A DNA stretch of 32,003 nt, taken from assembly GCA_007131405.1 (NCBI GenBank), contig SLQR01000110.1, forward strand, positions 1 through 32,003, in the 5' to 3' direction. Within the stretch, counting starts at the first letter, position 1. Each line of letters opens with the position of its first letter. This DNA comes from Candidatus Izemoplasma sp. (lineage in GTDB: Bacteria > Bacillota_I > Bacilli_A > Izemoplasmatales > Izemoplasmataceae). The notes beneath the pieces were generated by a model. The model saw only the letters and a program-made list of their open reading frames with translations, did no database searches and was not told the DNA's origin. Positions 19 through 17,454 of the stretch are shown one piece after another. The position numbers and the translations under genes are program-made.

Positions 19-147
19 TTAGCTAAGTTTTTCTAGGGAGTATTGAGCCGCTTCAGATACTTGACTATGGGGATCTTTTGCTAAATACTTTAGGGCAGAA
101 ATACTTTTTTCTGTATTAAAATTACCGTACAAAGAATCTACAAGCGC
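19..147 (-). pseudogene. HEAT-repeat-like gene remnant
   Basis: On the reverse strand an open frame of 42 codons ends at a TAA (19-21) and is closed upstream by an in-frame stop at 148-150. Its translation is amphipathic and HEAT-like, with the stretch SALKYLAKDPHSQVSEAAQ followed by a terminal YSLEKLS, the pattern of one helix-turn-helix HEAT unit. It has no ATG and no ribosome binding site; only a TTG (130-132) could start it. I read it as the 3' end of a decayed or deleted HEAT-repeat gene. A chance open frame or a tiny uncharacterised peptide are alternatives. The family call rests on pattern alone. Confidence 0.4.
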
Positions 148-152
148 TTACA
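139..152. promoter_or_regulatory. Candidate CcpA (cre) site upstream of the glm operon
   Basis: TACAAGCGCTTACA matches the cre consensus TGNAANCGNWWNCA at all but one constrained position (A for G at position 2) and is nearly palindromic around GCGC. Its centre lies about 60 bp upstream of the start site expected from the promoter at 171-198. In Bacillus subtilis, cre sites at about this distance (ackA, pta) are used for CcpA activation. The function here is inferred; whether the organism has CcpA cannot be seen. Confidence 0.5.
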
Positions 153-170: not shown

Positions 171-198
171 TTGATTTTCGTTTTATAAGCAGTATAAT
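171..198 (+). promoter_or_regulatory. Sigma-A promoter of the glutamate-fermentation operon
   Basis: A -35 box TTGATT (171-176) and a perfect -10 box TATAAT (193-198) are separated by 16 bp. Transcription should start near 205, giving a leader of about 210 nt before glmS that contains a small ORF and an intrinsic terminator. No other good promoter was seen between here and 9689, so this probably drives all nine genes. Confidence 0.75.
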
Positions 199-249
199 TA
201 AAATTGTGTTAGGCTACAAACTATTTCGAAAATAATCGAGGATGAAACG

Positions 250-357
250 ATGGTTCGCAGACAAAACATTTACAGAATGATGTCGTTAATCTTTGCCGCT
301 CACATTGTGAGCGACGGTTATTTTTGGTTAACTCAAAATTCGAAAATTAAAGGGTAA
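250..357 (+). CDS. Small leader ORF, 35 aa, upstream of glmS
   Basis: The ATG at 250 is preceded at 8 nt by GAGG (238-241), a proper ribosome binding site, and lies about 45 nt after the predicted start site. The peptide begins MVRRQNIYRMM, has a hydrophobic centre (SLIFAAHIV) and ends NSKIKG; it contains no Glu, Pro or Cys. The last two sense codons and the stop lie inside the 5' arm of the terminator at 349-383, and a 7-bp hairpin (CGCTCAC at 297-303 with GTGAGCG at 307-313) lies within the frame. That layout suggests a leader peptide whose translation influences attenuation of the operon. It could also be an independent small membrane-associated protein or a fortuitous frame. I do not recognise the family. 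Confidence 0.45.
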   Translation: MVRRQNIYRMMSLIFAAHIVSDGYFWLTQNSKIKG

Positions 358-383
358 TTTTTCTTATTAAAATTTCCCTTTTT
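349..383 (+). terminator. Intrinsic terminator/attenuator in the glm leader
   Basis: Arms AAAGGGTAATTTT (349-361) and AAAATTTCCCTTT (369-381) pair with one T-T mismatch around a 7-nt loop; the downstream run of five T ends at 383. It lies after the operon promoter and before glmS, so it can only attenuate the operon or cap a short leader transcript. The stop codon of the small leader ORF (355-357) lies in the 5' arm. Only three G-C pairs make it moderate in strength. Confidence 0.6.
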
Positions 384-414: not shown

Positions 415-819
415 ATGAAAACAGTCGTCATCGGTGTCATCGGCGCCGACGTTCATGCAGTTGGTAATAAGATTATAGACCATGTTCTTACAGAATATGG
501 ATTTAATGTTGTCAATATTGGTGTCTTAAGCTCACAAGAAGACTTTATTAACGCGGCCATTGAAACGAACGCCAAAGCAATTTTGGTTTCCTCACTTTAT
601 GGTCACGGTGAAATGGATTGCAAATACTTACGAGAAAATTGTGATGAAGCAGGACTAGGCCATGTTAAATTATATGTTGGCGGCAATATTGTTGTTGGGA
701 AACAAGATTTTAAAGAGGTTGAACAGCGCTTTAAAAAAATGGGCTTTGATCGCGTCTACCCACCCGGAACGAACATCGAAGATGCGGTTAAGGACTTAAG
801 AGAGGATCTGGGTGAATAA
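415..819 (+). CDS. glmS: Glutamate mutase sigma (B12-binding) subunit
   Basis: This is the cobalamin-binding subunit of methylaspartate mutase (EC 5.4.99.1), which with GlmE rearranges L-glutamate to (2S,3S)-3-methylaspartate. The 134-aa product has the Rossmann-like B12 fold signature: DVHAVG with D12, H14 (lower axial cobalt ligand) and G17, then S59-x-L61 and the G89-G90 pair. Clostridial homologues are about 137 aa, so it is full length. The ATG at 415 was chosen because AGGAGG (400-405) precedes it at 9 nt; the in-frame ATG at 406 sits directly against that motif. The stop overlaps the glmL start by one base. The gene is often called mutS in this pathway, unrelated to mismatch-repair MutS. 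Confidence 0.95.
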
Positions 820-2198
820 TGGGCATCCACCTTTTAGTCGACTTTGGATCAACATACACCAAACTGACAGCGGTAGATTTAGAAAAAGAAGACATAATAG
901 GTACCTCAAAAGCCATGACGACTGTCAAAACAAATGTTTTAGACGGGTTTAATTTAGCGCTTGAAAAGCTCAAGGTATCCTGTCCAGACATGCCGGAAAT
1001 TACCGGTATTTCAGCGTGTTCAAGTGCTGCAGGCGGCCTGAAAATGGCTGCGATTGGTCTGGTTGAAGAACTGACCGTTGAAGCAGCGAAGCGTGCATGT
1101 TTAGGCGCAGGTGCACTGGTTAATCTTGTGTTTAGTCACCATTTAAGCCGCAAAGAAGTTAAGCAATTAAAACAAGCCGATATCGATATTATTCTTTTAG
1201 CTGGTGGCACGGATGGCGGCAACAAAGAATGCATTATCCACAATGCCAAAAAACTACGTGATGCCGACTTAGGAGTACCGATTATTGTCGCTGGGAATAA
1301 AGACGCTGCAGATGAGATTGAAGAAATCTTTGATGCATCAAATCAAGAGTATTACATCGTGGATAATGTTATGCCAAAATTAAAAATGTTGAATGTAAAA
1401 GAAGCAAAAGAAGTTATTCGTCAAATTTTTATCACAAAAATTATTGAAGCAAAAGGGATTAAGAAAGCAGAAGAACAAACAGGTGAAATCATAATGCCAA
1501 CCCCAGAAGCCGTTTTACTTGCTGCTGAACTTTTAGCCAAAGGTTATGAAGATGAGGAAGGCTTTAACGAACTGATGGTGATTGACGTTGGTGGTGCAAC
1601 CACGGATGTGCACACCATTGGAGAAGGGTTCCCTAAACGTTCTGAAGTTATTTTAAAAGGCTTGCAAGAGCCTTTTGCTAAGCGTACGGTCGAAGGCGAC
1701 CTTGGTATGCGCTATAGTGCGAATGCCCTTTTAAGTTTGGTATCCCCTTATGAATTTAAACAGTATTATGAATACGATGAAACGGACATCGAACAATCCG
1801 CATTAAAACGTCATGAAAACGTTGAATATTTGCCAGACACAGATCAAGAACGTGCCTTCGACAACGCGTTGGCCCGAATTTGCTGCGACTATTCAATGAG
1901 TCGCCATGTTGGGCATGTCGAAGTGGTTTATACACCACTTGGAAATATGTATTATCAAACAGGAAAAGACCTTACGGATATTCAGTATGTTATCGGTACA
2001 GGTGGTGTGTTAATCAATAACGAAGACGCCAAAGAAATCCTGAAAGAAGTCAACCACAAAAGCAACAAAAAACTTGAACTTCGTCCAACCGATCCCGTCT
2101 TTTTAATTGATCGGAAGTACATTCTTGCGTCCATGGGACTACTCGGGCAAAAATACCCAAAACTCGCCCTTAAATTAATGAAAAAGTACTTAGTGTAG
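819..2198 (+). CDS. glmL: Glutamate mutase chaperone/reactivase MutL (GlmL)
   Basis: A 459-aa ASKHA-fold ATPase of the MutL/GlmL family encoded with glutamate mutase. These proteins are thought to maintain or reactivate the B12-holoenzyme, probably by exchanging damaged cofactor; the molecular role is less established than for diol dehydratase reactivases. Phosphate-1 motif DFGSTYTKLTAV lies near residues 8-19, a second phosphate/adenosine loop LLAGGTDGGNKE near 127-138, and another nucleotide-binding stretch VIDVGGATTDVHTIG near 253-267. The start overlaps the glmS stop in TAATG, typical of translational coupling. It ends in TAG, 9 nt before glmE. It is not DNA-repair MutL. Confidence 0.93.
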   Translation: MGIHLLVDFGSTYTKLTAVDLEKEDIIGTSKAMTTVKTNVLDGFNLALEKLKVSCPDMPEITGISACSSAAGGLKMAAIGLVEELTVEAAKRACLGAGALVNLVFSHHLSRKEVKQLKQADIDIILLAGGTDGGNKECIIHNAKKLRDADLGVPIIVAGNKDAADEIEEIFDASNQEYYIVDNVMPKLKMLNVKEAKEVIRQIFITKIIEAKGIKKAEEQTGEIIMPTPEAVLLAAELLAKGYEDEEGFNELMVIDVGGATTDVHTIGEGFPKRSEVILKGLQEPFAKRTVEGDLGMRYSANALLSLVSPYEFKQYYEYDETDIEQSALKRHENVEYLPDTDQERAFDNALARICCDYSMSRHVGHVEVVYTPLGNMYYQTGKDLTDIQYVIGTGGVLINNEDAKEILKEVNHKSNKKLELRPTDPVFLIDRKYILASMGLLGQKYPKLALKLMKKYLV

Positions 2199-2207
2199 GA
2201 GGCAATC

Positions 2208-3680
2208 ATGATACAAAATAAGAAAATACCTTGGGAAGATTTTTTAAAAAAACGTGAACAAATATTAACACACTGGGAAACTGGAAGTAGCCCACTTCTC
2301 GATTTAGATAAAGCCGTTGATCGCTTAAAAAATATGCCAGACCATAAAAATTTCGCTAAAAAACTGCGTAAAGCAAAAGCGGAGGGCATCACCATGATCC
2401 AACCCCGTGCAGGCGTTGCGTTGCTCGATCAACATATTGAACTTATGCAATTTTTAGAAAAACACGGCGAAGCCGATTTTCTTCCATCAACGATTGATTC
2501 CTATACCCGTCAAAACCGCTATCAAAACGCTCAAGATGGAATCAAGGAATCGGAGCGTTTAGGACGCAGTCTACTGAACGGATTTCCAGCGGTTAACTAT
2601 GGTGTTGAAGGCTGTATGAAAGTTGTTGACAACATCAATGTGCCAATTCAAGCACGCCACGGGACACCCGATGCGCGCTTATTAACGGAAATCATTCATG
2701 CCGCAGGCTGGACCTCTAACGAAGGTGGTGGCATTTCTTATAACATCCCTTATGCCAAAAACATTGGGTTAGAAGATACGCTACGTTATTGGCAATACTG
2801 TGATCGCTTAGTTGGGTATTATGCAGAACAAGGCATTGAGTTAAACCGTGAACCGTATGGGCCTTTAACGGGGACACTTGTTCCACCGTCAATTTCGCAT
2901 ACCGTTGCCATTATCGAATCGATTCTAGCGGCTGAACAAGGCGTGAAAAACATCACGGTTGGGTATGGACAAGGCGGCAATGTGGTCCAAGATATTGCTG
3001 CACTTCAAACCTTAGATGAGCTGACAAATTATTACCTCAAACTTTTTGGGTATAACGATGTGTTTGTCACGACAGTTTTCCATCAATGGATGGGAGGATT
3101 TCCTGCGGATGAAGCCAAATCGATGGGCGTAATTAGCTTAGCATCGACGGTGGCAACGTTAGGAAAAGCAACAAAAATGATTACAAAATCACCCCATGAA
3201 TCACAGGGGGTGCCAACCAAAGAAGCGAATGCAGAAGGCTTAAGAGCCTCAAAAATTATCACCCGTCTTTTGCGCGAACAAAAATTCCCATCATCAAAAG
3301 AACTTAAAGAAGAAAAAGAAATGATTAAAAAAGAAGTTAACGCACTTATATATGCGATTTTAAATGTTGGAAAAGGGGACTTAGCCCAGGGCGTTATTAA
3401 AGGCTTTGCCCGTGGACTCATCGACATACCGTTTGCGCCAAGCGAAATGAATGCAGGCAAAATATTGCCCGCGCGTGATGACCAAGGCAAAATACGCATC
3501 TTAGAATTTGGTAATCTTGCTTTTGATGAAGACATTAAAACCTTCCATCGTGAGCGTCTTGAAAAGCGCGCGAAACTCGAAAACCGTGAAGTATCTTTTC
3601 AAATGACCATCGATGATGTGTATGCGGTGTCACAAGGAACACTCGTTGGGAAACCAAGACAAAAAGGAGTTTCAGCATGA
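2208..3680 (+). CDS. glmE: Glutamate mutase epsilon (catalytic) subunit
   Basis: The 490-aa TIM-barrel subunit of methylaspartate mutase, which binds the substrate carboxylates and carries out the radical carbon-skeleton rearrangement with the 5'-deoxyadenosyl radical generated on GlmS-bound B12. Arginines at R67, R101 and R150 fall one residue after the arginine-claw positions I recall for the Clostridium cochlearium enzyme (66, 100, 149), which binds glutamate. Length matches the family (about 483-490). Ribosome binding site AGGAGG lies just before the ATG (taggaggcaatcATG). The last four bases overlap the mal start (ATGA), so the two are translationally coupled. Confidence 0.95.
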
Positions 3681-4927
3681 AAATAATTGATGCACTATGT
3701 TCAGAAGGGCTAACTGGCTTTTATTTTGATGACCAAAATGCGATAAAACAAGGCGCATTGATGGATGGTTTCATGTATAAAGGTGAGCCTGTTTCGCCAA
3801 AATTTTCCGCAATTCGTCAACCAGGTGAGTCGCTATCAATCATGTTGATTTTAGAGGATGGGTCGATTGCATACGGCGATGCCACAGCAGTTCAGTATTC
3901 CGGAGCCGGTGGACGCGATCCCCTTTTCTTAGCACGAGAAGGTAAGACCTTTTTTTACAGATACATCAAAGACCGCTTAATCGGTCTTGATGTAAGTCAA
4001 TTTCGCCAAAACGCCGAAACATTTGATCGCTTGCAAGTCAACAACCTACGCTTGCACACAGCGATGCGTTATGGGATAACAGGTGCCTTACTTGATGCGA
4101 CCGCCAAAGCAACCCGTCAAACCATGGCGGAAGTGGTAAGAAACGAATACAACCTCCCCAATCCAAGTTACGAAACCATTCCTATTTTCGCTCAAACTGG
4201 CGATGAACGTTACACCAACGTCGATAAAATGATTATTAAAGAAGTCGATGTCATGCCTCACGCTCTCATCAATAACATTGAAACGAAACTTGGGCATCAA
4301 GGGGAAATACTAAAAGAATACGTTCAATGGTTACGGAACCGAATCATCAATAAGCGTATGCGTGAAGACTATGAACCGATTTTGCATATTGATGTTTATG
4401 GTACCATTGGCATTATTTTTGATTATAACTATAAAAAAATGTTTAACTATTTAAAAGAATTATCGAATGTTGCTGCACCGTTCTTATTACGCGTTGAGGG
4501 ACCAGTGGATGAAGGCGAACGCGAAAAAACCATGATTGCTCTAAGAACATTGCGTGAAATGATTGACGCTGACCCGACTGTACACGTTGAAATTGTCGCC
4601 GATGAATGGTGCAATACCTTAGAAGATGTTCAGTATTTTACCGACCATAAAGCGGGTCACATGGTTCAAGTCAAAACCCCAGACCTTGGTGGCGTAAATA
4701 ATATTATTGAAGCACTTCGCTATTGCTTAAAACACGGCATGGGTGCTTACAGTGGTGGTTCATGTAACGAAACCAATATCAGCGCAGAGATAACCACATC
4801 CATTGCCATGGCCTGCGAAGCAAAACAAGTCCTCGCAAAACCTGGAATGGGTGCGGATGAAGGCATTATGATTGTTAAAAACCACATGGCACGAACCCTT
4901 GCCCTTATCGAGCGAAGACAATCATGA
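3677..4927 (+). CDS. mal: Methylaspartate ammonia-lyase
   Basis: The 416-aa enolase-superfamily lyase (EC 4.3.1.2) removes ammonia from 3-methylaspartate to give mesaconate, the second step of the methylaspartate route. Candidate catalytic residues are H195 in VMPHALINN and K333 in [10 protein letters not shown], matching His194 and Lys331 recalled for the Clostridium tetanomorphum enzyme. Acidic metal ligands fit the positions in HIDVYG (D239), RVEGPVDEG (E274) and ADEW (D309). Length matches (about 413). It overlaps glmE by 4 bases and citD by 4 bases (ATGA at both ends), placing it mid-operon. Confidence 0.95.
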
Positions 4928-5190
4928 AACCCATAGTCGTTGGAAGTTTAGAATCAAGCGATTGTTTGATTACACTCACACCGAGTAAAACCACCACCAT
5001 CACGATTGAAAGTATTGTTTACGATGCCTTTGGCGACGCCATCGAACAAGTGATTAAACAAACATTAAAGCACCATGGATTGCACGATGTTCATGTCTAT
5101 GTACAAGATAAAGGCGCGCTTGATTATGCGATTGAAGCCCGATTAACCTCAGCAATCAAGCGGTATAGGAGTGAGGCAGATGAGTCGTAG
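4924..5190 (+). CDS. citD: Citrate/citramalate lyase acyl carrier protein (gamma subunit)
   Basis: An 88-aa acyl carrier subunit of the citrate-lyase family. The GSLESSD motif contains the serine (S11) that by homology to CitD carries the 2'-(5''-phosphoribosyl)-3'-dephospho-CoA prosthetic group, through which the acetyl and acyl thioesters turn over. Size is normal for CitD (about 95 aa). Start overlaps the mal stop as ATGA. Because the neighbours make mesaconate rather than citrate, the complex most likely cleaves (S)-citramalate to acetate and pyruvate (citramalate lyase, EC 4.1.3.22); that substrate is inferred from context. Confidence 0.9.
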   Translation: MKPIVVGSLESSDCLITLTPSKTTTITIESIVYDAFGDAIEQVIKQTLKHHGLHDVHVYVQDKGALDYAIEARLTSAIKRYRSEADES

Positions 5191-6016
5191 TTATTTATTT
5201 ATTCCTGGTGATGTTCCGCGCATGCTTCAAAACCTTGATGTTTTTGATGCCGACAGCATCATCATCGATTTTGAAGACAGCGTTGCCATTGACCAAAAAG
5301 ATGAAGCTCGCCTCTTAACTCAGGCGTTTTTATCCAAACATCACTTTAAAGAACTCGATCTTTATATTCGCGTCAATGACGTCTCACAAAAGACCTTATT
5401 CGAAGCGGATATGCAGGCCATTAAAGCACTAAACATTCATGGGATTGTCTTGCCTAAGGTTACGCTTGAAGCGCTTGATTCTGTGGATGCTTTTTTTGAT
5501 CGCGAAAACATAACATTCCCAATCATTGGCATTATCGAAACCCCGCTTGCCGTATTAGAGGCTCAAACCATCGCGAAACATAAACGTATTCAAGGGTTAC
5601 TTTTAGGCGCAGAAGATTTAACCAAAGACCTTGGGACAACACGTACACTCGATGCGGAAGAGATCCTTTTTGCGCGTTCACAGATTGTGTTTGCGGCGAA
5701 AGCTTATCAAAAAGAAGCGATTGATACGCCGTATGTCTTTGTACGTGATGAAGCGGGCCTTGCGGTGGATGCTCAACGCGCCGCAAGGCTCGGGTTTACC
5801 GCTAAAGCAAGTATTCATCCCAATCATGTTGAAACGATCCATCACTATTTTTCCCCATCAAAAGAAGCCATCCATGAAGCCAAACGCATTGTTGCGCAAA
5901 GTAAAAAACTAAACAGCATGCGGTTTAGTCTTGATGGTAGCATGGTGGATAAACCCGTGATTGATCGAGCAAAAGCCTTGCTTAAACGCGCGGAAAAGTA
6001 TGGTGTTTTATCATGA
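5180..6016 (+). CDS. citE: Citrate/citramalate lyase beta subunit (CitE family)
   Basis: A 278-aa TIM-barrel lyase that cleaves the acyl-ACP intermediate. Characteristic motifs are RSYLFIPGDVPRM near the N-terminus, IIDFEDSV (acidic metal site), GIIETPLAV (Glu ligand) and LGAEDLTKDLG. In this pathway it would release pyruvate from citramalyl-ACP, leaving acetyl-ACP. I chose the ATG at 5180 because AGGAG at 5167 lies 8 nt upstream; a GTG at 5171 is the only other option and lies on top of that motif. It overlaps citD by 11 bases and citF by 4 bases. Confidence 0.92.
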   Translation: MSRSYLFIPGDVPRMLQNLDVFDADSIIIDFEDSVAIDQKDEARLLTQAFLSKHHFKELDLYIRVNDVSQKTLFEADMQAIKALNIHGIVLPKVTLEALDSVDAFFDRENITFPIIGIIETPLAVLEAQTIAKHKRIQGLLLGAEDLTKDLGTTRTLDAEEILFARSQIVFAAKAYQKEAIDTPYVFVRDEAGLAVDAQRAARLGFTAKASIHPNHVETIHHYFSPSKEAIHEAKRIVAQSKKLNSMRFSLDGSMVDKPVIDRAKALLKRAEKYGVLS

Positions 6017-7413
6017 AACCCATCTACTATAACCTAAACGATTTATTTAAGACATTAACCTTATTTGATGGCATGGGCATATCGTTTCATCACCATCTAA
6101 GAAACGGCGATGCCATCACCAACCTTATTACCACGGAGTTTCATCACCGTAACCTAAAAAAGTTACGGCTTTTTCCCTCGGCGATTTTTCCCTCGTACCA
6201 CGGGATTTTAACGCTTTTGAAAGCGGACCAAGTCGATACCATCACCACGAATTATTTGAATGGTCCTGTAGCTGATTATTTTGCCAAGCACGGGAAACCA
6301 AACAGCCTTAAGATGCAAACCCATGGTGGACGCGCTCGGGCGTTTATTGAAGGTGAAAACAAAGTTGATATAGCCTTCGTGACTGCGCCAACGGTTGACC
6401 GTGAAGGCCGTGCAAGTGGAGCACAAGGCAAAAGTGCTTGTGGGTCATTAGGGTATGCGATTGAAGATGTTCATTACGCAAGCACGGTCGTCTTAATCAC
6501 CGACAACCTTGTTGACGCGCTTGATCATTATCAAATTGATGGCACCACCGTTGATGCAATTTTAGTGGTTGAGTCTTTAGGCGATGCCCGCGGGATTGTT
6601 AGTGGAACGACAAGCATTACAAACGATCCAGTCGGCGTGAAAATTGCACGCAACGCCACTAACTTAATCCAAGAACTTGGGCTTATCAAACCCGGGTTCT
6701 CGTTTCAAAGTGGTGCCGGTGGCATTAGTTTGCGTGTAACCGAAAGCATAAAAACCCTATTACGTGACAAAAACATCACCGCAAGTTTCTTCTCAGGTGG
6801 CATCACAAAATACCATGTGGATATGCTTGAAGAAGGCCTTGTAAAGACACTTTACGATGTTCAATGCTTTGATTTAGATGCCATTAAATCGATTGATAAA
6901 AACCCTCAACACAAAGCCATAAGTGCTAACGATTATGCCAACCCAAATAACCCTCATCGCATTATCAAAGATCTTGATATTGTCATTTTAGGGGCAACAG
7001 AAATTGATCTCGATTTTAACGTCAATGTAACAACCGATTCCTACAATACCATTATTGGGGGATCGGGTGGGCATAGCGATACCGCAACCGATGCGTTTGT
7101 AAGTTTTATTGTAACGCCCTTAATGAAAGCGAGAACACCGATTATTAAAGAACGTGTGAATACCATCACGACACTGGGAAAACATATTGATTGCCTTATC
7201 ACTGAACGTGGCATTGCGATTAACCCTCGTCGCCATGATTTGCTTGAGCAATTAAAAGACAGTCACTTAGATATTGTATCCATCGAAACCTTAATGGCCC
7301 GTGCGCATCACTATACAGGAAGTCCCCAAAAAACCCAACCGAAAAAACAACCGATAGGCGTCGTTGAAGACCGTGATGGCACCATTATCGATACGTTATA
7401 CACGAAGGAGTGA
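6013..7413 (+). CDS. citF: Citrate/citramalate lyase alpha subunit (CitF family)
   Basis: A 466-aa CoA-transferase-type subunit that exchanges the acetyl group of acetyl-ACP for the incoming substrate, giving free acetate and the substrate-ACP thioester. Family landmarks are FHHHLRNGD, a conserved HGGRARA segment near residue 102, SGAQGKSACGSLGYA, and the C-terminal GGSGGHSDTATDAF glycine-rich loop. It is somewhat shorter than the enterobacterial protein (about 510), with no sign of internal disruption. Starts on the ATGA overlap with citE; its stop TGA lies 4 nt before the citC start, and the citC ribosome binding site is inside its last codons. Confidence 0.93.
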   Translation: MKPIYYNLNDLFKTLTLFDGMGISFHHHLRNGDAITNLITTEFHHRNLKKLRLFPSAIFPSYHGILTLLKADQVDTITTNYLNGPVADYFAKHGKPNSLKMQTHGGRARAFIEGENKVDIAFVTAPTVDREGRASGAQGKSACGSLGYAIEDVHYASTVVLITDNLVDALDHYQIDGTTVDAILVVESLGDARGIVSGTTSITNDPVGVKIARNATNLIQELGLIKPGFSFQSGAGGISLRVTESIKTLLRDKNITASFFSGGITKYHVDMLEEGLVKTLYDVQCFDLDAIKSIDKNPQHKAISANDYANPNNPHRIIKDLDIVILGATEIDLDFNVNVTTDSYNTIIGGSGGHSDTATDAFVSFIVTPLMKARTPIIKERVNTITTLGKHIDCLITERGIAINPRRHDLLEQLKDSHLDIVSIETLMARAHHYTGSPQKTQPKKQPIGVVEDRDGTIIDTLYTKE

Positions 7414-7417
7414 TTTG

Positions 7418-8431
7418 ATGCGTGTACAAGATATTGTGCTTGACGAAGAACGTCAAGACGTCATAAACTTTTTGAATCGGTTTAAGCTTGGCTACGAAGA
7501 CGATATCGATACCACCATTGCGCTTTTTGAAGACAACACCATCATCGCCACCGCCAGCAGCAGCGCAAACATCATCAAAGCCATTGCTATTCATGAAGAC
7601 TATCAAGGCAAGAACTTGCTTGCCACACTAATGACTGAAATGATTAAGCGTTTAGCGCATAAAGGGATTGATCACTATTTCGTCTACACCCTCGATGAAC
7701 AAGTGCCATTATTTAAAGCGCTTGGGTTCAAACCCGTTGTTCAAACGATGACTCTTTCTGTCTTAGAAGGTGGGCGTTTTATTCACGATGTACTCAACGC
7801 GTTAGTCGAAGACTACCACATATCTCCATACCCGAAAGCATGTGTTGTGATTAATGCCAATCCGATGACGCTTGGTCATTACTACCTCATTGAAACCGCA
7901 GCCCGAGAAAATAACGATGTTTTGGTTTTTGTGGTGAGCGAAGATCGAAGTGTCTTTCCGTTTGAGCATCGCTTTAACATTGTCAAAAAAACCTGTGAAG
8001 CTTTTGACAATGTCACTGTGTTACCCACGCGTGATTACCTCGTTTCTTACGCCACGTTTCCCAAATACTTTTTAAAAGAAGAAACCCAGATTCACGAAGA
8101 ACATGCGCTTGTTGATGTGCTGGTCTTTAAAACCCATTACATGAAACACTTTACTATAACCAAACGCTACGTCGGAGAAGAACCGCTCAGCCCGATGACA
8201 GCTATGTACAATCAAACCATGAAAAAATATTTAAACGATAAATTAATCATTGTTCCGCGCTTAAAGCACAAGCAAGAAATCATTAGTGCTTCGACGGTGA
8301 GACGATTGCTAAAAATCGAAGCACTTGAAACCGTTCAACCTTATGTTGTTCCAGCGACGTATGATTACTTACAATCCAAGGAAGGACGCGATGCTATTGC
8401 TAAACTCAAAAACCACAAAACACGCCACTAA
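7418..8431 (+). CDS. citC: Citrate lyase ligase (acetate:ACP ligase, CitC)
   Basis: A 337-aa [citrate (pro-3S)-lyase] ligase (EC 6.2.1.22) that activates the lyase by ATP-dependent acetylation of the CitD prosthetic group. An N-terminal GNAT-like region (about 1-115) precedes a cytidylyltransferase-like nucleotide-binding domain with the motif ANPMTLGH (T151-x-G153-H154). The ATG at 7418 follows AAGGAG (7405-7410); an in-frame ATG at 7364 lacks such a site and would extend 54 nt back into citF. The 3' end overlaps citXG by 41 bases. Confidence 0.92.
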   Translation: MRVQDIVLDEERQDVINFLNRFKLGYEDDIDTTIALFEDNTIIATASSSANIIKAIAIHEDYQGKNLLATLMTEMIKRLAHKGIDHYFVYTLDEQVPLFKALGFKPVVQTMTLSVLEGGRFIHDVLNALVEDYHISPYPKACVVINANPMTLGHYYLIETAARENNDVLVFVVSEDRSVFPFEHRFNIVKKTCEAFDNVTVLPTRDYLVSYATFPKYFLKEETQIHEEHALVDVLVFKTHYMKHFTITKRYVGEEPLSPMTAMYNQTMKKYLNDKLIIVPRLKHKQEIISASTVRRLLKIEALETVQPYVVPATYDYLQSKEGRDAIAKLKNHKTRH

Positions 8432-9689
8432 CGAAGCGCTACTTGAAGCACGCGACATCATGTATGCAACGCTGAAAGCCTACGCTAAACACCACAAAAA
8501 AACAACGATTCTCCTCAAATGCAACATGCCTGGTGCAACCAAAAATACGTGGTATACTGCCGTCGTTTTGCGCATTTTTGATAAACTAATCAATCAACTC
8601 TTATCCCCGTTTTCGCGTGAATATTACGACTCGTTTGCGGGTAATTACACGCTATTTTCCATCGATCAAGAAGCGCATGATGTAAAGCATTTAGCCTTAA
8701 TGCTTGAACACGAACACCCACTCGGACGTTACATCGATATTGATGTCTATGATCGTGGTAAAGCAGTAACCCGAGAGGAGTACCACTACGAACACCGACT
8801 CTGTTTCTTGTGTGATGGCGTAGCGCATGAGTGCGCTCGCAGTCAACGACACACCACCGAAGCATTAACCACGCACATCAAAGAATCTGTAAAGGCGTAT
8901 CTAAGTCAAGCCTTGACACACGTCGTGATGCATGCCATGCGAAAAGAAGTCTACTTATATCCGAAATTTGGCCTTGTCTCAAACAGAGATTCAGGGGCAC
9001 ACCACGACATGAAAATTGACCATTTTTTGGCATCAATAAAGGCCCTTGAGCCTTACTTAAAGGTTTTTCTAGAAGCGGGATTCGATGAATCCATCGACCT
9101 TGAAGGCTTGCGCAAGGTTGGTCAAGAAGCCGAAGAAGCTATGTACGAAGCGACACGACACATCAATACCCACAAAGGCGCTATTTTTATCTATGGGGCC
9201 TTTTTACCGTACTTCATTCGCGGCATTGTGCACCAAGACACATTACCAGGCATTATGGCAGTCATGGCCCAGGCAGTTGAAGAAGTTACGAAACATGATT
9301 TTGATTATTTAAAGGATAAAAAAGTGCTTACACCCGGCGAAATTATCTACCAAAAATATGGGTTAAAAGGCATTCGTTCAGAAGTGGCTAAAGGATTCCC
9401 TAGCGTCATGAACTGGTACCCAAATGCATCGTACAATGATTACCAAAAACTGTGTGCAATTATGGCTCGCCTCGACGATACAACAATCATTAAACGTCAT
9501 AACTACACGATGCTTCGCAATGTGAAAGAAGAAATGTCCGTCTTATTAAAAGAAGAACCTTTTAACTTTTCTACGTATAAAGTTTTAAGTAACCAATATA
9601 AAGCCAAAGGTATCTCACCAGGTGGCGCCGCCGATCTTTTAAGTTTGGTGTTCTTCTTAGACCAAGCGAAACATCTTTTAAACACATAA
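8391..9689 (+). CDS. citXG: CitX-CitG fusion for prosthetic-group synthesis and transfer
   Basis: A 432-aa fusion. Residues about 1-170 are CitX-like (apo-citrate lyase phosphoribosyl-dephospho-CoA transferase, EC 2.7.7.61): CNMPGATKN, PLGRYIDIDVYD and the cysteine-rich LCFLCDGVAHECARSQRH. Residues about 175-432 are CitG-like (triphosphoribosyl-dephospho-CoA synthase, EC 2.4.2.52): YPKFGLVSNRDSGAHHDM and SPGGAADLLSLVFF. Such fusions are known in some lactic acid bacteria and Haemophilus. The ATG at 8391 has GGAAGGA (8380-8386) just upstream and lies inside citC, a 41-nt overlap; an earlier in-frame ATG at 8325 would deepen the overlap without a good site. It closes the operon; a bidirectional terminator follows 5 nt later. 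Confidence 0.9.
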   Translation: MLLLNSKTTKHATNEALLEARDIMYATLKAYAKHHKKTTILLKCNMPGATKNTWYTAVVLRIFDKLINQLLSPFSREYYDSFAGNYTLFSIDQEAHDVKHLALMLEHEHPLGRYIDIDVYDRGKAVTREEYHYEHRLCFLCDGVAHECARSQRHTTEALTTHIKESVKAYLSQALTHVVMHAMRKEVYLYPKFGLVSNRDSGAHHDMKIDHFLASIKALEPYLKVFLEAGFDESIDLEGLRKVGQEAEEAMYEATRHINTHKGAIFIYGAFLPYFIRGIVHQDTLPGIMAVMAQAVEEVTKHDFDYLKDKKVLTPGEIIYQKYGLKGIRSEVAKGFPSVMNWYPNASYNDYQKLCAIMARLDDTTIIKRHNYTMLRNVKEEMSVLLKEEPFNFSTYKVLSNQYKAKGISPGGAADLLSLVFFLDQAKHLLNT

Positions 9690-11583: not shown

Positions 11584-11800
11584 AAGTAAAGGCGATAATC
11601 CGAAGTAGTAATTTGTGGGTTCTTTTAAGCGACTTAGTGGGTGGTGAAAACTAAGATGAACCGCAAGTGAACTCGTCGTGATTGCTGCACAGTATGTGCC
11701 GTATTCCTGCGTTAAAGGATTGAGTGCTAGCGTAGCTAGAATCAAGGTGGTACCGCGGACTTAGGTTCGTCCTTATTTTTAGGACGAATTTTTTTATTGA
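11584..11800 (+). promoter_or_regulatory. T-box riboswitch leader, tRNA-Leu responsive
   Basis: The invariant T-box AAGGTGGTACCGCGG lies at 11744-11758 and pairs with the acceptor end of uncharged tRNA. An AGTA motif near 11606 fits the 5' side of the specifier loop. The 3' side reads GTGAACTCGTC, giving a CUC (Leu) specifier at 11672-11674, matching the downstream leuS. The terminator has TTCGTCCT (11766-11773) paired with AGGACGAA (11781-11788), followed by seven T. Under leucyl-tRNA shortage, uncharged tRNA-Leu stabilises the antiterminator and leuS is transcribed. The specifier assignment is by eye. Confidence 0.93.
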
Positions 11801-11815
11801 TAAAGGAGTGATTTC

Positions 11816-14221
11816 ATGGAGTATAATCCAAAAGCTATTGAGAAAAAATGGCAAAAACACTGGTATGAAAACAATGTCTTTAAAGCCAACGACTTTGAAG
11901 ATAAACCGAAATACTATACATTAGTTGAGTTTCCTTACCCTTCTGGGTCAGGGATGCATGTTGGCCACATTCGTGCCTACACAAGCTTAGAAGTGATTGC
12001 AAGAAAACGCCGTATGGAAGGCTATAATGTGTTATTTCCAATTGGCTTTGATGCGTTTGGTTTACCGACGGAAAACTACGCGATTAAAGAGAAAATCCAC
12101 CCACGTATAATTACCGATCAAAACATTGAAATCTTTACCGACCAATTAAAACAGATGGGGTATTCGTTTGATTTTGATCGTACAGTGGATACCACCGATC
12201 CGGATTATTATCGTTGGACACAGTGGATTTTTCTAAAACTGTTTCAAAAAGGATTGGCGTATCGTCATAAAACATTCGTCAATTTTTGTCCGTCGTGTAA
12301 AGTGGTTCTTTCCAATGAGGAAAGCCAAGGTGGCGTATGTGACCGCTGTGATTCGCCGGTTGAACAAAAAGAAAAAGATGTGTGGTTCTTAAAAATAACC
12401 GAATACGCAGAGCGTTTACTTGAAGGCCTTAAAGACCTTGAAACATTACCTCGGATTAAACTTGAACAAGAAAACTGGATTGGAAAATCCGAAGGGGCAG
12501 AAATTGTATTTGATGTCCAAAATACGAACGCAACCTTAAATGTTTTTACGACCCGTCCAGATACCTTGTTTGGTTCGACGTTTATGGTCGTTGCACCCGA
12601 ACACCCATTGCTTATAAGTGAGCGCAGTAAGATACATAACATGGATCAAATCGAAGCGTATCAAGCACAAGCAAAACAAAAAAGCGAATTTGAGCGTACT
12701 CAACTTGTCAAAGATAAGACAGGGGTTCGTGTCATTGGGCTTAACGCAGAAAACCCATCAAATGGGAAGAAGATGCCTATTTTTGTTGCCGACTATGTCA
12801 TGATGGGTTATGGGACAGGTGCCATTATGGCTGTGCCTGGCCATGATCAACGTGACTATGAATTTGCTAAAAAATATCATTTAGACATTGTTGAGGTTAT
12901 TGAAGGCGGCGATCTAAGCAAAGAAGCTTATACCGACACCGACGAAGGGGTTATGGTCAATAGTGACTTTTTGGATGGGTTGTCCGTTTCAGAAGCCATA
13001 CGTACCATGATTGAATTTCTCGAAAAAGCGAACCGCGGAAAACGCATGATTACGTATAAAATGAAAGATTGGGCATTTAATCGTCAACGTTATTGGGGTG
13101 AACCTATTCCAATTATTCATTGTGATGCGTGTGGCATGGTTGGTGTGGATGAAAAAGACTTGCCTGTGCGTTTACCCGAAGTGGATCACTTTGAACCGAC
13201 GGATACAGGCGAAAGCCCGCTGGCAAACATTCCCGATTTTGTCAATACAACATGCCCAAAATGCCAAGGTAAAGCAAAACGAGAAACCGATACCATGCCT
13301 CAATGGGCGGGGTCTAGTTGGTATTTCTTACGCTACATTGACCCCCGAAACGATAAACAACTTGCTGATTTCGATAAACTCAAGTATTGGATGAATGTCG
13401 ATTGGTATAACGGTGGCATGGAACACGTCACTCGACACGTTATTTATTCACGCTTTTGGCATCTTTTCTTAAGTGATCTTGGGGTTGTTCCTACCGAGGA
13501 ACCGTATAAAAAACGAACAGCACAAGGGTTAATTTTAGGGCCAGACGGCGACAAAATGAGTAAATCAAAAGGCAACGTGGTTAATCCGATTGACATGATT
13601 GAAGATTTTGGTGCCGATACCTTACGTTTATACATCCTCTTTATTGGTGATTATGAACAGTCAACGCCGTGGAGTGATTCAGGGATAAAAGGCGCACGCC
13701 GTTTCCTTGATAAAGTCTGGCGTCTTTATGATAAAGTATCCGATAAGGATGACGATAAATCACTTGTGGTCTTGCTTCATAAAACCATCGATGATGTTAG
13801 TTCAGACATGGAGCAGGTTAAATTTAACACCGCAATTGCTAAATTAATGACCCTCGCTAATGAGTTTTCAAAAGCGGATCATATTTCACATACAGCCTAC
13901 AATACCTTAATCCGCTTAGTGCATCCATTTGCGCCACATATCACTGAAGAAATCAATGAACGCTTAAAAAATAAAGAAGCACTTGTATTCAGTCCTTATC
14001 CGAAAGCAGACGCACAATTGATGGTTGAAGACACGATTACGATTGTCTTAAGCATCAATGGCAAAGTACGCGACAAGCTTGATGTCGAAAAAGATCTGCC
14101 AAAAGAAACCATGGAAAAACTCGCGCTTGAATCCGAGCGTATCCAAAACTTTACAGAAGGGAAGACCATCCGTAAAGTAATTGTTGTTCCAAATAAACTT
14201 GTGAATATAGTTGTCTCCTAA
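11816..14221 (+). CDS. leuS: Leucyl-tRNA synthetase
   Basis: An 801-aa class I synthetase (EC 6.1.1.4). The HIGH motif is HVGH (residues 48-51) and the KMSKS motif is intact in DGDKMSKSKGN. The CP1 editing domain is present, including TTRPDTLFGSTF, and a cysteine pair region CPSCKV...CDRC suits the zinc-binding insertion. The C-terminal end VVPNKLVNIVV is typical of bacterial LeuRS. AAAGGAG precedes the ATG. Expression is controlled by the T-box directly upstream. It is followed at once by a terminator, so it is a single-gene unit. Confidence 0.98.
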   Translation: MEYNPKAIEKKWQKHWYENNVFKANDFEDKPKYYTLVEFPYPSGSGMHVGHIRAYTSLEVIARKRRMEGYNVLFPIGFDAFGLPTENYAIKEKIHPRIITDQNIEIFTDQLKQMGYSFDFDRTVDTTDPDYYRWTQWIFLKLFQKGLAYRHKTFVNFCPSCKVVLSNEESQGGVCDRCDSPVEQKEKDVWFLKITEYAERLLEGLKDLETLPRIKLEQENWIGKSEGAEIVFDVQNTNATLNVFTTRPDTLFGSTFMVVAPEHPLLISERSKIHNMDQIEAYQAQAKQKSEFERTQLVKDKTGVRVIGLNAENPSNGKKMPIFVADYVMMGYGTGAIMAVPGHDQRDYEFAKKYHLDIVEVIEGGDLSKEAYTDTDEGVMVNSDFLDGLSVSEAIRTMIEFLEKANRGKRMITYKMKDWAFNRQRYWGEPIPIIHCDACGMVGVDEKDLPVRLPEVDHFEPTDTGESPLANIPDFVNTTCPKCQGKAKRETDTMPQWAGSSWYFLRYIDPRNDKQLADFDKLKYWMNVDWYNGGMEHVTRHVIYSRFWHLFLSDLGVVPTEEPYKKRTAQGLILGPDGDKMSKSKGNVVNPIDMIEDFGADTLRLYILFIGDYEQSTPWSDSGIKGARRFLDKVWRLYDKVSDKDDDKSLVVLLHKTIDDVSSDMEQVKFNTAIAKLMTLANEFSKADHISHTAYNTLIRLVHPFAPHITEEINERLKNKEALVFSPYPKADAQLMVEDTITIVLSINGKVRDKLDVEKDLPKETMEKLALESERIQNFTEGKTIRKVIVVPNKLVNIVVS

Positions 14222-14317: not shown

Positions 14318-14346
14318 TTGAAACCCCGTAAATAAAATGTTATAAT
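14318..14346 (+). promoter_or_regulatory. Promoter of the branched-chain amino acid operon
   Basis: TTGAAA (14318-14323), a 17-bp spacer and TATAAT (14341-14346) with an extended -10 TG at 14338-14339. Expected start near 14353. This is among the strongest-looking promoters in the window and probably drives seven genes, to 19842. Confidence 0.85.
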
Positions 14347-14354
14347 CATTAACG

Positions 14355-14368
14355 TAAAAACGCTTTCA
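14355..14368. promoter_or_regulatory. Candidate CcpA (cre) site at the start of the leucine operon
   Basis: TAAAAACGCTTTCA read on the other strand is TGAAAGCGTTTTTA, which matches TGNAANCGNWWNCA except at position 13. It would span about +3 to +16, where a bound CcpA represses by blocking the promoter or elongation. Its AAACGCT (14358-14364) also pairs with AGCGTTT (14375-14381), giving a hairpin near the 5' end of the mRNA that might instead be an RNA-stabilising element. Confidence 0.5.
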
Positions 14369-14420
14369 TGGGACAGCGTTTAAATTTTGAGAGATTATTA
14401 TTCTAAGGAGGATTTTTTTA

Positions 14421-15491
14421 ATGAAAAAATTTGAGTACATGGAAAAACACGGGTACGAACAACTGGTGTTTTTTCATGACGAAACCACTGGTTTAAAAGG
14501 TATTACATGTATCCACGATACATCACTCGGGCCAGCCCTTGGTGGAACAAGACTTTGGAACTACGACACCGAAGATGAAGCAACGTTAGACGTATTGCGT
14601 CTAGCACGCGGGATGACCTATAAAGCTGCTGCTGCAGGCCTTAATCTTGGTGGTGGAAAAACAGTTTTAATCGGTGACCCAGAAAAAGTAAAAAGTGAAG
14701 CATATTTCCGTGGTCTTGGACGCTATGTTCAAGCGTTAAATGGACGTTACATCACAGCTGAAGACGTAAATACGTCAACAAAAGACATGGATTTTGTGAA
14801 CATGGAAACTGATTTTGTGGTAGGTCTTAAACACAAAAGTGGAAACCCTTCTCCAATGACAGCACTTGGTGCGTTCCATGGAATTCGTTCGGCCCTTAAA
14901 GAAGTTTATGGATCGGATGAAATCGAAGGAAAAACCTTTGCCGTACAAGGCGCAGGACAAACAGGCGATTTCTTGATTGGTTACTTACTTGAAGCGAATG
15001 CAAAGAAAATTTACTTTACAGAAATTAATGATAAACACATTGAGAAAATTAACGAAAAATACCCAGATGTTGAATTCGTTAAACCTGACGATGTTTACAG
15101 CTTAGATGTTGATGTGTATGCGCCATGTGCACTTGGAGCAACCATTAACGATAAAACAATCCCGCAACTGAAGTGTAAAATCGTTGCAGGGACAGCAAAT
15201 AATGTACTTGATGATGAAGAAAAACATGGAAACATGTTGAAAGATAAAGGCATCCTTTACGCACCTGACTTCGTAATCAATGCTGGTGGACTTATTAACG
15301 TGTACCACGAACTTCGCGGATACAGCCGTGAAAACGCAGAAAACGACATTGAGAAAATCTATGACCGCTTAACGGATATTTACAAGTTGTCAAAAGAAAA
15401 CGATGTCAACACCCAAGAAGCGGCGAAACTCTTTGCAAAAGAGCGTATCAAAACGATCAGCACCGTTCGTTCAAACTTCGTTAAACGCTAA
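14421..15491 (+). CDS. Leucine dehydrogenase
   Basis: A 356-aa Glu/Leu/Phe/Val dehydrogenase-family enzyme (EC 1.4.1.9) that oxidatively deaminates leucine, valine and isoleucine to 2-oxo acids with NAD. Residues K68 (TYKAA), K80 (LGGGK) and D115 (AEDVNTS) fall at exactly the positions of the catalytic residues I recall for Bacillus leucine dehydrogenases. The nucleotide-binding loop is VQGAGQTG, with an acidic residue after the second strand (FTEIN), in keeping with NAD rather than NADP. AAGGAGGA (14405-14412) precedes the ATG at 8 nt. It is the first gene of the operon. Phenylalanine or valine preference cannot be excluded by sequence. Confidence 0.9.
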   Translation: MKKFEYMEKHGYEQLVFFHDETTGLKGITCIHDTSLGPALGGTRLWNYDTEDEATLDVLRLARGMTYKAAAAGLNLGGGKTVLIGDPEKVKSEAYFRGLGRYVQALNGRYITAEDVNTSTKDMDFVNMETDFVVGLKHKSGNPSPMTALGAFHGIRSALKEVYGSDEIEGKTFAVQGAGQTGDFLIGYLLEANAKKIYFTEINDKHIEKINEKYPDVEFVKPDDVYSLDVDVYAPCALGATINDKTIPQLKCKIVAGTANNVLDDEEKHGNMLKDKGILYAPDFVINAGGLINVYHELRGYSRENAENDIEKIYDRLTDIYKLSKENDVNTQEAAKLFAKERIKTISTVRSNFVKR

Positions 15492-16142
15492 ATGAAGCGC
15501 ATTACGATTTTAACGGGTCATTACGGTTCGGGAAAATCAGAAATTGCCATCAACTTAGCCATCCAAGATGAGCTTAACGCTTTAATCGACTTAGACATCA
15601 TTAATCCTTATTTTCGTTCACGCAGTGCACGCAAATTATTGGAAGCAAATGGCATTGAGTTGATTGAATCAACAATTGAAAATTCAGCAGGAAGCGATCT
15701 CCCTTTCATAAGCGCGAAAGGGAGTCGTCCTTTTGTTAATAGTGATCTGCGTGCGGTTTATGATCTTGGGGGCACAAAACATGGTGCGAAAGTAATGATG
15801 CAATTTCGCGATTTTATCAAAAACCGTGACGAAATAGACTTTTTGGTTGTTGTGAATATTTACCGACCAGAAACAGATCAAGCAAAAAAGATTATCCAAA
15901 TGGTTGAAGAACTAGAAGCAACCAGTCAGATTCGAGTGACTGGCTTTATCAACAACTCGAACTTAATGGAATACACCGATGAAAGTATGATTGAAGAAGG
16001 CGAACGCATTCTTAAAGAAGCAGCCGGCACGTTAAACCTTCCAATAGTCTATACCTTCATTGAAGAACATGTGAAAACAACCAAACGTTACGCAGGCGAC
16101 AATCGTGTTTTAATCCGTTACCTCGCAAAACAATGGTTATAG
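15492..16142 (+). CDS. P-loop ATPase of unknown role in the 2-oxoacid oxidoreductase operon
   Basis: A 216-aa soluble nucleotide-binding protein. The Walker A motif GHYGSGKS spans residues 9-16, and the next strand LIDLDIINPYFRSR resembles the switch region of the MinD/ParA/NifH-like ATPase group; NIYRPETDQ and GFINNSNL are further conserved-looking segments. I do not know a demonstrated function. It lies between leucine dehydrogenase and the ferredoxin-like subunit; from memory similar ATPases occur beside 2-oxoacid:ferredoxin oxidoreductase genes in other anaerobes. A role in iron-sulfur cluster or cofactor loading of the enzyme is plausible but unproven. The ATG directly follows the upstream stop (TAA-ATG) with no ribosome binding site, so translation probably depends on reinitiation. 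Confidence 0.8.
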   Translation: MKRITILTGHYGSGKSEIAINLAIQDELNALIDLDIINPYFRSRSARKLLEANGIELIESTIENSAGSDLPFISAKGSRPFVNSDLRAVYDLGGTKHGAKVMMQFRDFIKNRDEIDFLVVVNIYRPETDQAKKIIQMVEELEATSQIRVTGFINNSNLMEYTDESMIEEGERILKEAAGTLNLPIVYTFIEEHVKTTKRYAGDNRVLIRYLAKQWL

Positions 16143-16154
16143 GAGGAATTTTTT

Positions 16155-16379
16155 ATGGCTAAAGGTCGAATTATTATTGAGCAGGACTTATGCAAAGGAT
16201 GCGAATTATGTGTATATCAATGTCCTGTGCATATTTTAGAATTGGATACGTCTACAACCAACGCCAAAGGGTATACGCCGTTGATTGTCAACGATCCGGA
16301 GAAATGCATTGCATGCAGTTTTTGTGCGATGATTTGTCCTGATTCGGTGATTACTGTAGAACGTTTCGTAAAGGAGTGA
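16155..16379 (+). CDS. vorD: 2-oxoacid:ferredoxin oxidoreductase delta (ferredoxin-like) subunit
   Basis: A 74-aa protein with two [4Fe-4S] motifs: C13, C16, C19, C23 (CKGCELCVYQC) and C51, C54, C57, C61 (CIACSFCAMIC). It carries electrons out of the oxidoreductase to free ferredoxin. AGGAGG precedes the ATG. It is followed after 7 nt by the alpha subunit. The vor rather than kor or por name rests on leucine dehydrogenase and butyrate kinase being in the same operon. Confidence 0.9.
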   Translation: MAKGRIIIEQDLCKGCELCVYQCPVHILELDTSTTNAKGYTPLIVNDPEKCIACSFCAMICPDSVITVERFVKE

Positions 16380-16386
16380 AATAAAA

Positions 16387-17454
16387 ATGGCTAAAGTATT
16401 AATGAAAGGGAACGAAGCGATGGCGCTTGCAGCAATCAAAGGTGGCTGCGATGCATTTTTCGGGTATCCGATTACGCCGCAAAACGAAATCCCTGAATAT
16501 CTTTCCTATCATATGCAAGAACACGGTCGTGTTTTTGTTCAAGCGGAAAGTGAAGTGGCTGCGATTAACATGGTATACGGAGCAGCAGGGGCTGGAGCAC
16601 GTGTGTTAACGTCCTCATCAAGTCCAGGTATTGCCTTAAAACAAGAAGGGATTAGTTACATAGTTGGAAGTGAACTTCCAGCAGTGATTATCAACGTTAT
16701 GCGTGGGGGACCAGGTCTTGGTGGTATTCAGCCAAGTCAAGGCGACTACAATCAAGTAACACGCGGTGGCGGAAATGGCGATTATCATTTGCTCGCATTT
16801 GCCCCAGAAACGTTACAAGAAACGGTTGATATCGTTAAACAATCATTTGATTTAGCGGATTATTACCGTAACCCGGTTATGATTGCGGTCGATGGATTAA
16901 TCGGTCAGATGATGGAGCCTGTTGACATAGATAAAGAAGTCGAACAAAAAACACTCGAAGAAAAAACATGGGCCTCGGATGGAACAAGTGGAAAACGTGG
17001 CAGAGTTAACAAAATTGTTTCGTTGCACCTCGATCCATACGATCTTGAAAAACACAACTTGAAATTAAAAGCAAAATACGATGAAATGGTCGAAAAAGAA
17101 CAACGTTATGAAATGATTGACACCGACGATGCAGAAATCGTTATTGTTGCGTATGGTTCGATGGCACGTATTGCACGCAGTGCAGTTAAAGAACTACGTA
17201 ACGAAGGTGTTAAAGTTGGAATTATTCGTCCAATTACGATTTGGCCGTTCCCAGAGAAAGCATTTGATGAACTGCCAGAATCTGTGCATACCTTATTAAC
17301 GGTAGAAATGAGCCTTGGTCAAATGTTGCAAGATGTAAAAATTGTGAACCAAGGTCGCTACCAACTTGAATTTTACGGACGTGCCGGTGGCGTTGTGCCT
17401 GAGGCATCGGAAATTATGGACCAAGTTCGTAAACACCTTAAGGGGGCAAAATAA
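16387..17454 (+). CDS. vorB: 2-oxoacid:ferredoxin oxidoreductase alpha subunit
   Basis: A 355-aa subunit holding the pyrimidine-binding and domain II parts of a thiamine-diphosphate enzyme that turns branched-chain 2-oxo acids and CoA into acyl-CoA, CO2 and reduced ferredoxin (EC 1.2.7.7 if the substrate guess is right). GNEAMALAAIKGGC, GYPITPQNE, QAESEVAAINM (the Glu that activates the cofactor) and TSSSSPGIALKQEG are diagnostic. AAGGAG sits upstream of the ATG. The stop overlaps the beta-subunit start by one base in TAATG. 2-oxoglutarate or pyruvate specificity cannot be ruled out from sequence alone. Confidence 0.9.
   Translation: MAKVLMKGNEAMALAAIKGGCDAFFGYPITPQNEIPEYLSYHMQEHGRVFVQAESEVAAINMVYGAAGAGARVLTSSSSPGIALKQEGISYIVGSELPAVIINVMRGGPGLGGIQPSQGDYNQVTRGGGNGDYHLLAFAPETLQETVDIVKQSFDLADYYRNPVMIAVDGLIGQMMEPVDIDKEVEQKTLEEKTWASDGTSGKRGRVNKIVSLHLDPYDLEKHNLKLKAKYDEMVEKEQRYEMIDTDDAEIVIVAYGSMARIARSAVKELRNEGVKVGIIRPITIWPFPEKAFDELPESVHTLLTVEMSLGQMLQDVKIVNQGRYQLEFYGRAGGVVPEASEIMDQVRKHLKGAK

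Follow-up and report, generated by a model that had tools for sequence, protein, structure and literature searches.

The majority of the leader-peptide attenuators described so far rely on specific codons or on arrest peptides. In the Escherichia coli pyrBI operon, a leader ORF of about 44 codons reaches the attenuator, and the paused polymerase lets the coupled ribosome prevent termination. The pyrBI leader senses UTP and controls a pyrimidine biosynthesis operon in a strongly coupled organism. Coupling of transcription and translation ranges from E. coli and Mycoplasma (coupled expressomes) to Bacillus subtilis (runaway transcription). Izemoplasma is a wall-less relative of the mollicutes.

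The coupling in pyrBI is regulated by pause sites, and in E. coli, termination fell from about 90% to less than 10% when the stop codon was shifted to 5 bp upstream of a terminator (PMC4824070). The B. subtilis tlrB (yxjB) leader uses a pause to allow time for initiation, and the terminator is blocked, with no antiterminator, by a ribosome close to the stop codon; the direct occlusion of the terminator by the ribosome is a proposal (PMC6851288). The B. subtilis vmlR leader contains a uORF, a pause hairpin with TTATTT and an intrinsic terminator (PMC9226507). In B. subtilis pausing, N81 and T82 of NusG read the TTNTTT motif, and the pause hairpins stand 11–12 nt from the RNA 3' end (PMC12288461).

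By its anatomy, the leader of the glutamate mutase (glm) operon described here appears to belong to the pyrBI/tlrB type of attenuation. As in pyrBI, the leader ORF extends to the terminator. The leader resembles that of tlrB in having a leader peptide, a pause-like hairpin with a putative T-rich NusG contact, a terminator and no antiterminator. In tlrB, tylosin stalls the ribosome at the RYR motif of a 9-residue peptide, whereas the glm leader peptides have 28–58 residues and are unconserved. The pause hairpin of tlrB is the apex of the terminator, whereas the pause-like element of the glm leader is separate and located upstream. Unlike tlrB, the glm operon is catabolic. The vmlR leader shares the uORF, the hairpin with TTATTT and the intrinsic terminator, but its uORF has three codons, its signal is antibiotic stalling and it forms an antiterminator structure. 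The trp/his-type attenuators share the translated leader, the pause-like hairpin and the terminator. Unlike them, the glm leader has no codon run and no antiterminator (except in one genus, g17), and its ORF extends as far as the terminator arm. New features are the apparent independence of the peptide, the conserved spacing, the glutamate-fermentation operon and the lineage.

Leader and operon in the window

The window, that is, the whole stretch of 32,003 nt analysed, forms one end of a contig of an uncultured Izemoplasma-type bacterium. The genome has 1.46 Mb in 118 contigs. The features of the leader and of the operon are listed in Table 1. According to the original prediction, a promoter, a ribosome binding site, a 35-codon ORF, a 7-bp hairpin and a terminator containing the stop codon are located ahead of glmS, and all of these elements were found where it placed them. 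Transcription is expected to start near position 205. The terminator has 12 of 13 possible pairs with a predicted energy of −8.4 kcal/mol, and the UAA of the leader ORF lies inside its 5' arm. A pattern scan for terminators did not list this hairpin, probably because of the mismatch and the A/T-rich ends. The distance from the terminator end to glmS is 33 nt, which leaves no space for a second promoter. The Shine–Dalgarno (SD) sequence of glmS is AGGAGG at 400–405.

Table 1. Features of the glm leader and operon in the window.
Feature	Position	Strand	Basis
cre-like palindrome (around AAGCGCTTACA), upstream of the promoter	139–152	+	sequence
Sigma-70-type promoter, TTGATT (171–176), 16 nt, TATAAT (193–198), 10/12 matches	171–198	+	sequence; kept in the family leaders
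Segment AAAATAATCG and SD of the leader ORF, GAGG (238–241)	229–241	+	AAAATAATCG able to pair with 315–324 (fold)
Leader ORF, 35 codons, MVRRQNIYRMMSLIFAAHIVSDGYFWLTQNSKIKG, ATG 250–252, UAA 355–357	250–357	+	sequence, frame statistics
GCC-stem-GAC hairpin, 7-bp core 297–303/307–313, proposed pause hairpin	295–315	+	covariation, pairing
T-rich tract TTATTTTT, TTNTTT at +68 from the ATG, proposed NusG contact	318–325	+	T frequency
Intrinsic terminator, arms 349–361/369–381, T run 379–383	349–383	+	sequence, fold, alignment
glmS (mutS), glutamate mutase subunit S, first controlled gene	415–819	+	NF002612, TIGR01501 above cut-off
glmL	819–2198	+	NF040745
glmE (mutE), glutamate mutase subunit E	2208–3680	+	TIGR01503
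Methylaspartate ammonia-lyase	3677–4927	+	TIGR01502
citD-like gene (4924–5190), then citE/citF/citC/citXG-like genes in the same gene run	4924–9689	+	citD-like gene from position and size

The genes from 415 to 9689 encode the methylaspartate route from glutamate, presumably to citramalate and its cleavage by citramalate lyase; the citD-like gene was assigned from position and size alone. Our literature search found no paper linking glutamate mutase to leader attenuation. For the fermentation of glutamate through methylaspartate in Izemoplasma, the leader would be a first control element.

A site of the AAGCGCTTACA type is located close to the promoter in nearly all leaders of the family. It lies 5' of the promoter in the genus of the window and in many others, and just 3' of the −10 element in the genera g14, g16, g2, g12 and g9. 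The same operon has the cre-like site on opposite sides of the promoter depending on the genus.

Conservation of the frame and the terminator

The upstream DNA of glmS was collected from the family Izemoplasmataceae, and 43 leaders were long enough. A translatable ORF reaching the terminator is present in 42 of them. The exception, L021 of genus g9, has the promoter and the cre-like site and lacks both the leader ORF and the terminator; it is a natural control for the attenuator. In the 42 leaders, a terminator hairpin is always found (mean −12.2 kcal/mol), its arm begins 90–103 nt past the ATG, and its end is separated from glmS by 19–39 nt. This gap is too short for a promoter, so that the downstream genes depend on read-through, and the order of promoter, terminator and gene likewise indicates that glm expression requires it. 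The terminator in the window is among the weakest of the 42. Thus, partial constitutive read-through is possible there.

The original prediction had named conservation in relatives as its own test, and its observation is confirmed: the leader ORF, the terminator and their overlap are kept across the family. The more specific claim that the stop codon lies inside the 5' arm holds in part. In 32 of the 42 leaders, the stop codon is located at −13 to +10 from the start of the terminator hairpin, which puts it within the arm, at its edge or shortly ahead of it. In the other ten, the ORF continues further into or through the hairpin, and several of these ORFs end at the start of glmS. Therefore, the constant feature is that translation reaches the terminator, not that the stop codon lies inside the arm. 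The leader ORFs of L005, L037, L119 and L013 cross the terminator and overlap the glmS start codon (as ATGA in L005, for example), so that their translation could be coupled to that of glmS.

In 41 leaders, the ATG frame contains 14 stop codons, each of which is that of the ORF itself and lies in the last 17 nt or so before the terminator arm, compared with 131 and 58 stop codons in the other two frames. The frame is open to the terminator in all 41 leaders, and in 42 of 42 when L051 is added. For 11 pairs of relatives, the joint probability that the frame would remain open under the observed number of substitutions is 1.5e-4. In ten pairs of relatives, the substitutions at the three codon positions are 52/53/59 in the leader ORF and 56/33/483 in glmS. 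Between L055 and L126, the RNA is nearly identical, and cancelling +1/−1 indels give KSCKICRRFYT in one and KVVKSVAVFVT in the other. Frame-restoring indels are likewise found between L043 and L070, and the last third of the ORF in L003 and L009 is read in a different frame from that in L001 and L005. These results indicate that translation of the segment is selected, and not the peptide: the peptide lacks conservation, and the open frame is under selection.

Order-level relatives (family f3) do not have the arrangement, and at the glmS loci outside the family, no comparable terminator lies a short way upstream. A genome search with the model R1 detected one such leader per genome, at glm. A wider regulon was considered and rejected: an extra match in G050 is a second copy of the glm leader at a contig end, and a weak match in G055 falls in an unrelated acetyltransferase-like gene. 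Across about 750 kb scanned in two relatives, no further leader ORF of this type was found.

Hairpin, T-rich tract and NusG

The original prediction missed that the hairpin and the U-tract together look like a synchronizing pause, and that their distance to the start codon is constant. Counted from the ATG, the hairpin is located at about +45 to +66, the T-rich tract at about +66 to +74, and the terminator arm begins at +90 to +103. In the alignment, 89.8% of the hairpin cells are paired, against 38–67% in slid controls. The covariation is 0.282, against 0.133 in shuffles (0/500), and both-side changes are found in three pairs. The frequency of T is about 0.66 at +67 to +71 and 0.29 overall in the 42 leaders. 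The mean folding profile shows two minima, which lie at the same places in divergent genera. A global RNAalifold structure contains only the hairpin and the terminator.

In the window, the hairpin ends at 315, TTATTT occupies 318–323, and the implied RNA 3' end of the pause would be near 328, at a distance of about 12 nt from the hairpin. The order and spacing of hairpin and TTNTTT are those of a NusG-dependent pause site. The NusG of the same genome has VRNTPG, whose Asn-Thr is aligned to the motif-reading N81-T82 of the 177-residue solved NusG, as counted from the printed alignment. Thus the element resembles a NusG-dependent pause signal; in B. subtilis, only a small fraction of TTNTTT motifs pause.

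The flanks of the hairpin, GCCG and CGAC, are invariant including a conserved C-A mismatch, and they exceed the needs of a pause hairpin. They would suit an RNA-binding protein or a ligand that binds the GCC-hairpin-GAC element and decides termination, with the ORF held open for a secondary reason. The larger folded domain given by the SD pairing in many genera (see below) also fits such a binder. This explanation leaves the selection of an open frame across frameshifts unaccounted for. In addition, the genera g14 and g16 have lost the GCC/GAC letters of the flanks while the folding minima and the T tract stay at unchanged distances. In Rfam, nothing reached the gathering threshold or came near it, the best sub-threshold matches being unrelated sRNAs, and a known riboswitch or T-box at the glm leader was rejected. 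We regard control by a protein or ligand as unlikely, though it is the strongest of the alternatives.

Pairings of the leader RNA

The SD region can pair with the segment just past the hairpin. In the whole set, this pairing is stronger in the own sequences than in swapped ones (−9.6 and −8.5 kcal/mol, p = 0.004). In L001, it amounts to −10.1 kcal/mol, and 0.3% of shuffles are as good. The pairing is strong in the window and in many genera and absent in L004, L009 and L011; it is thus statistically supported, but not universal.

A conserved RNA antiterminator was not found family-wide (own −4.6, swapped −4.7 kcal/mol, p = 0.68). Genus g17 alone has perfect complementarity between the segment past the hairpin and the terminator arm (CCUUUAUUU/AAAUAAAGG). 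This pairing is what a Trp-type attenuator of the opposite sign would use, in which the translating ribosome prevents the antiterminator, so that good translation leads to termination and stalling to read-through. Its absence elsewhere in the family, and a stop codon that lies within or beside the terminator arm and not upstream of an antiterminator, make this opposite sign rather improbable. Leaders of the trp or TnaC type were tested against their known features and rejected: neither a codon run for a controlled amino acid (trp/his-type), nor an antiterminator, nor conserved critical residues as in a TnaC-like arrest leader were found.

Proposed mechanism

We lean, by a small degree, towards a ribosome-mediated transcription attenuator in which translation switches the genes on. 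A short ORF, predicted to be translated, is kept open between promoter and terminator in all 42 leaders, its end is placed so that a ribosome would cover the terminator stem, and the genes beyond depend on read-through. From the match to a pause signal, the NusG residues, the tlrB precedent and the lack of an antiterminator, we infer pausing, ribosome loading, coupled advance, occlusion and read-through as follows. RNA polymerase would start near 205, transcribe the start of the leader ORF and pause shortly past the hairpin and TTNTTT. During the pause, a ribosome would load on the exposed SD and then trail the polymerase. When the polymerase reaches the end of the terminator (about 383–390), a close ribosome at or near the stop codon would cover the 5' arm. 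The terminator hairpin would then be blocked, and transcription would continue into glmS and the remaining genes of the glutamate-to-citramalate operon. If no ribosome has loaded in time, or if it lags, the terminator would form and transcription would stop. In many members, the SD may later pair with the segment past the hairpin and so close the loading window after the polymerase has moved on.

The peptide is scrambled, but reading frame and spacing persist, so the leader is probably a sensor of whether the ribosome keeps up with RNA polymerase. The signal would be the amino-acid supply or the energy state, relayed by the speed of translation or the length of the pause. A response in this direction would suit a catabolic operon: glutamate would be burned when translation is well supplied, or when nucleotides are low if it is the pause length that varies.

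A further and more tentative reading is that the attenuator is independent of the peptide and reads the ribosome–polymerase timing itself, the spacing of start codon, pause and terminator serving as the ruler. If so, slower translation of the leader or a shorter pause would shut off glutamate fermentation, and the leader would be a general gauge of translation capacity or energy where transcription otherwise outruns translation. Since the peptide is scrambled and the frame, hairpin and spacing are kept, the family offers a natural test of the control of transcription by translation timing alone.

Coupling in the family genomes

In two genomes of the family (L134–L173; 147 and 87 genes), the median distances from stop codon to terminator hairpin are 2 and 5 nt. 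Short distances of this kind are taken as a sign of polymerase outrunning the ribosomes in B. subtilis (PMC7858274). Because such distances are usual in the family genomes, a stop codon touching a terminator is not special in itself. What is special at glm is that the terminator stands between the sole promoter and glmS. The short distances resemble those of runaway transcription, which suggests that a ribosome at a stop codon is usually no obstacle to a terminator in these genomes. Thus, unlike the organism of pyrBI, the genomes with the glm leader look uncoupled. An unsynchronized ribosome would arrive too late, and the proposed attenuator therefore needs a pause-like element that restores coupling. 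Evidence against the model is that the full TTNTTT is absent in about a third of the leaders and that the SD pairing is absent in several members. The leader bears on where coupling exists between the extremes of E. coli or Mycoplasma and B. subtilis.

Weaker explanations

The weak terminator in the window and the cre-like sites in nearly all members would also fit a leaky terminator that sets only the basal level, the control itself being exerted on the promoter by way of the cre-like site. A passive terminator does not need the family-wide spacing of ATG, hairpin, T tract and terminator, and although the leader is dispensable in L021, it was lost only once in 43. We consider this explanation very unlikely.

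The original prediction had noted that the peptide contains no Glu codon. This is not general, since only 12 of the 42 leaders are free of Glu in the first 31 residues, and the Glu-free leader was rejected as a signal; yet none of the amino acids is strongly enriched relative to shuffled leaders either. Attenuation specific to one amino acid, triggered by starvation for a residue that the leader encodes, would be consistent with a translated leader ahead of a terminator, but this lack of enrichment, and peptides that differ and are frameshifted between relatives, make it scarcely probable.

Of the two sensors that had been suggested, one of translation status is favoured over one of the nascent peptide, which is without codon-level conservation and tolerates frameshifts. 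Arrest by a TnaC-like nascent peptide, or a functional small protein, is about equally improbable: a local similarity (AV....NDLCLYLTK) exists within several genera, but it is a similarity of nucleotides with even changes over the codon positions, and the residues are replaced by frameshifts in L003/L009 relative to L001/L005 and between L055 and L126. On these grounds, a small protein or arrest peptide was rejected.

Other features of the window

On the minus strand at 13–143, the C-terminal end of a HEAT-repeat-like protein (ALVDSLYGNFNTEKSISALKYLAKDPHSQVSEAAQYSLEKLS*) is preceded by an in-frame stop codon and shows a weak match to HEAT_2; it is a decayed fragment or a short gene. More amino-acid fermentation genes are present at 14320–17454 (Leu/Trp-dehydrogenase-like and a VorB-type 2-oxoacid oxidoreductase), with a cre-like site past the promoter near 14361 and without an attenuator leader. 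A T-box leader at 11586–11777 (RF00230, 102 bits) is located upstream of the leucyl-tRNA synthetase gene at 11816–14221.
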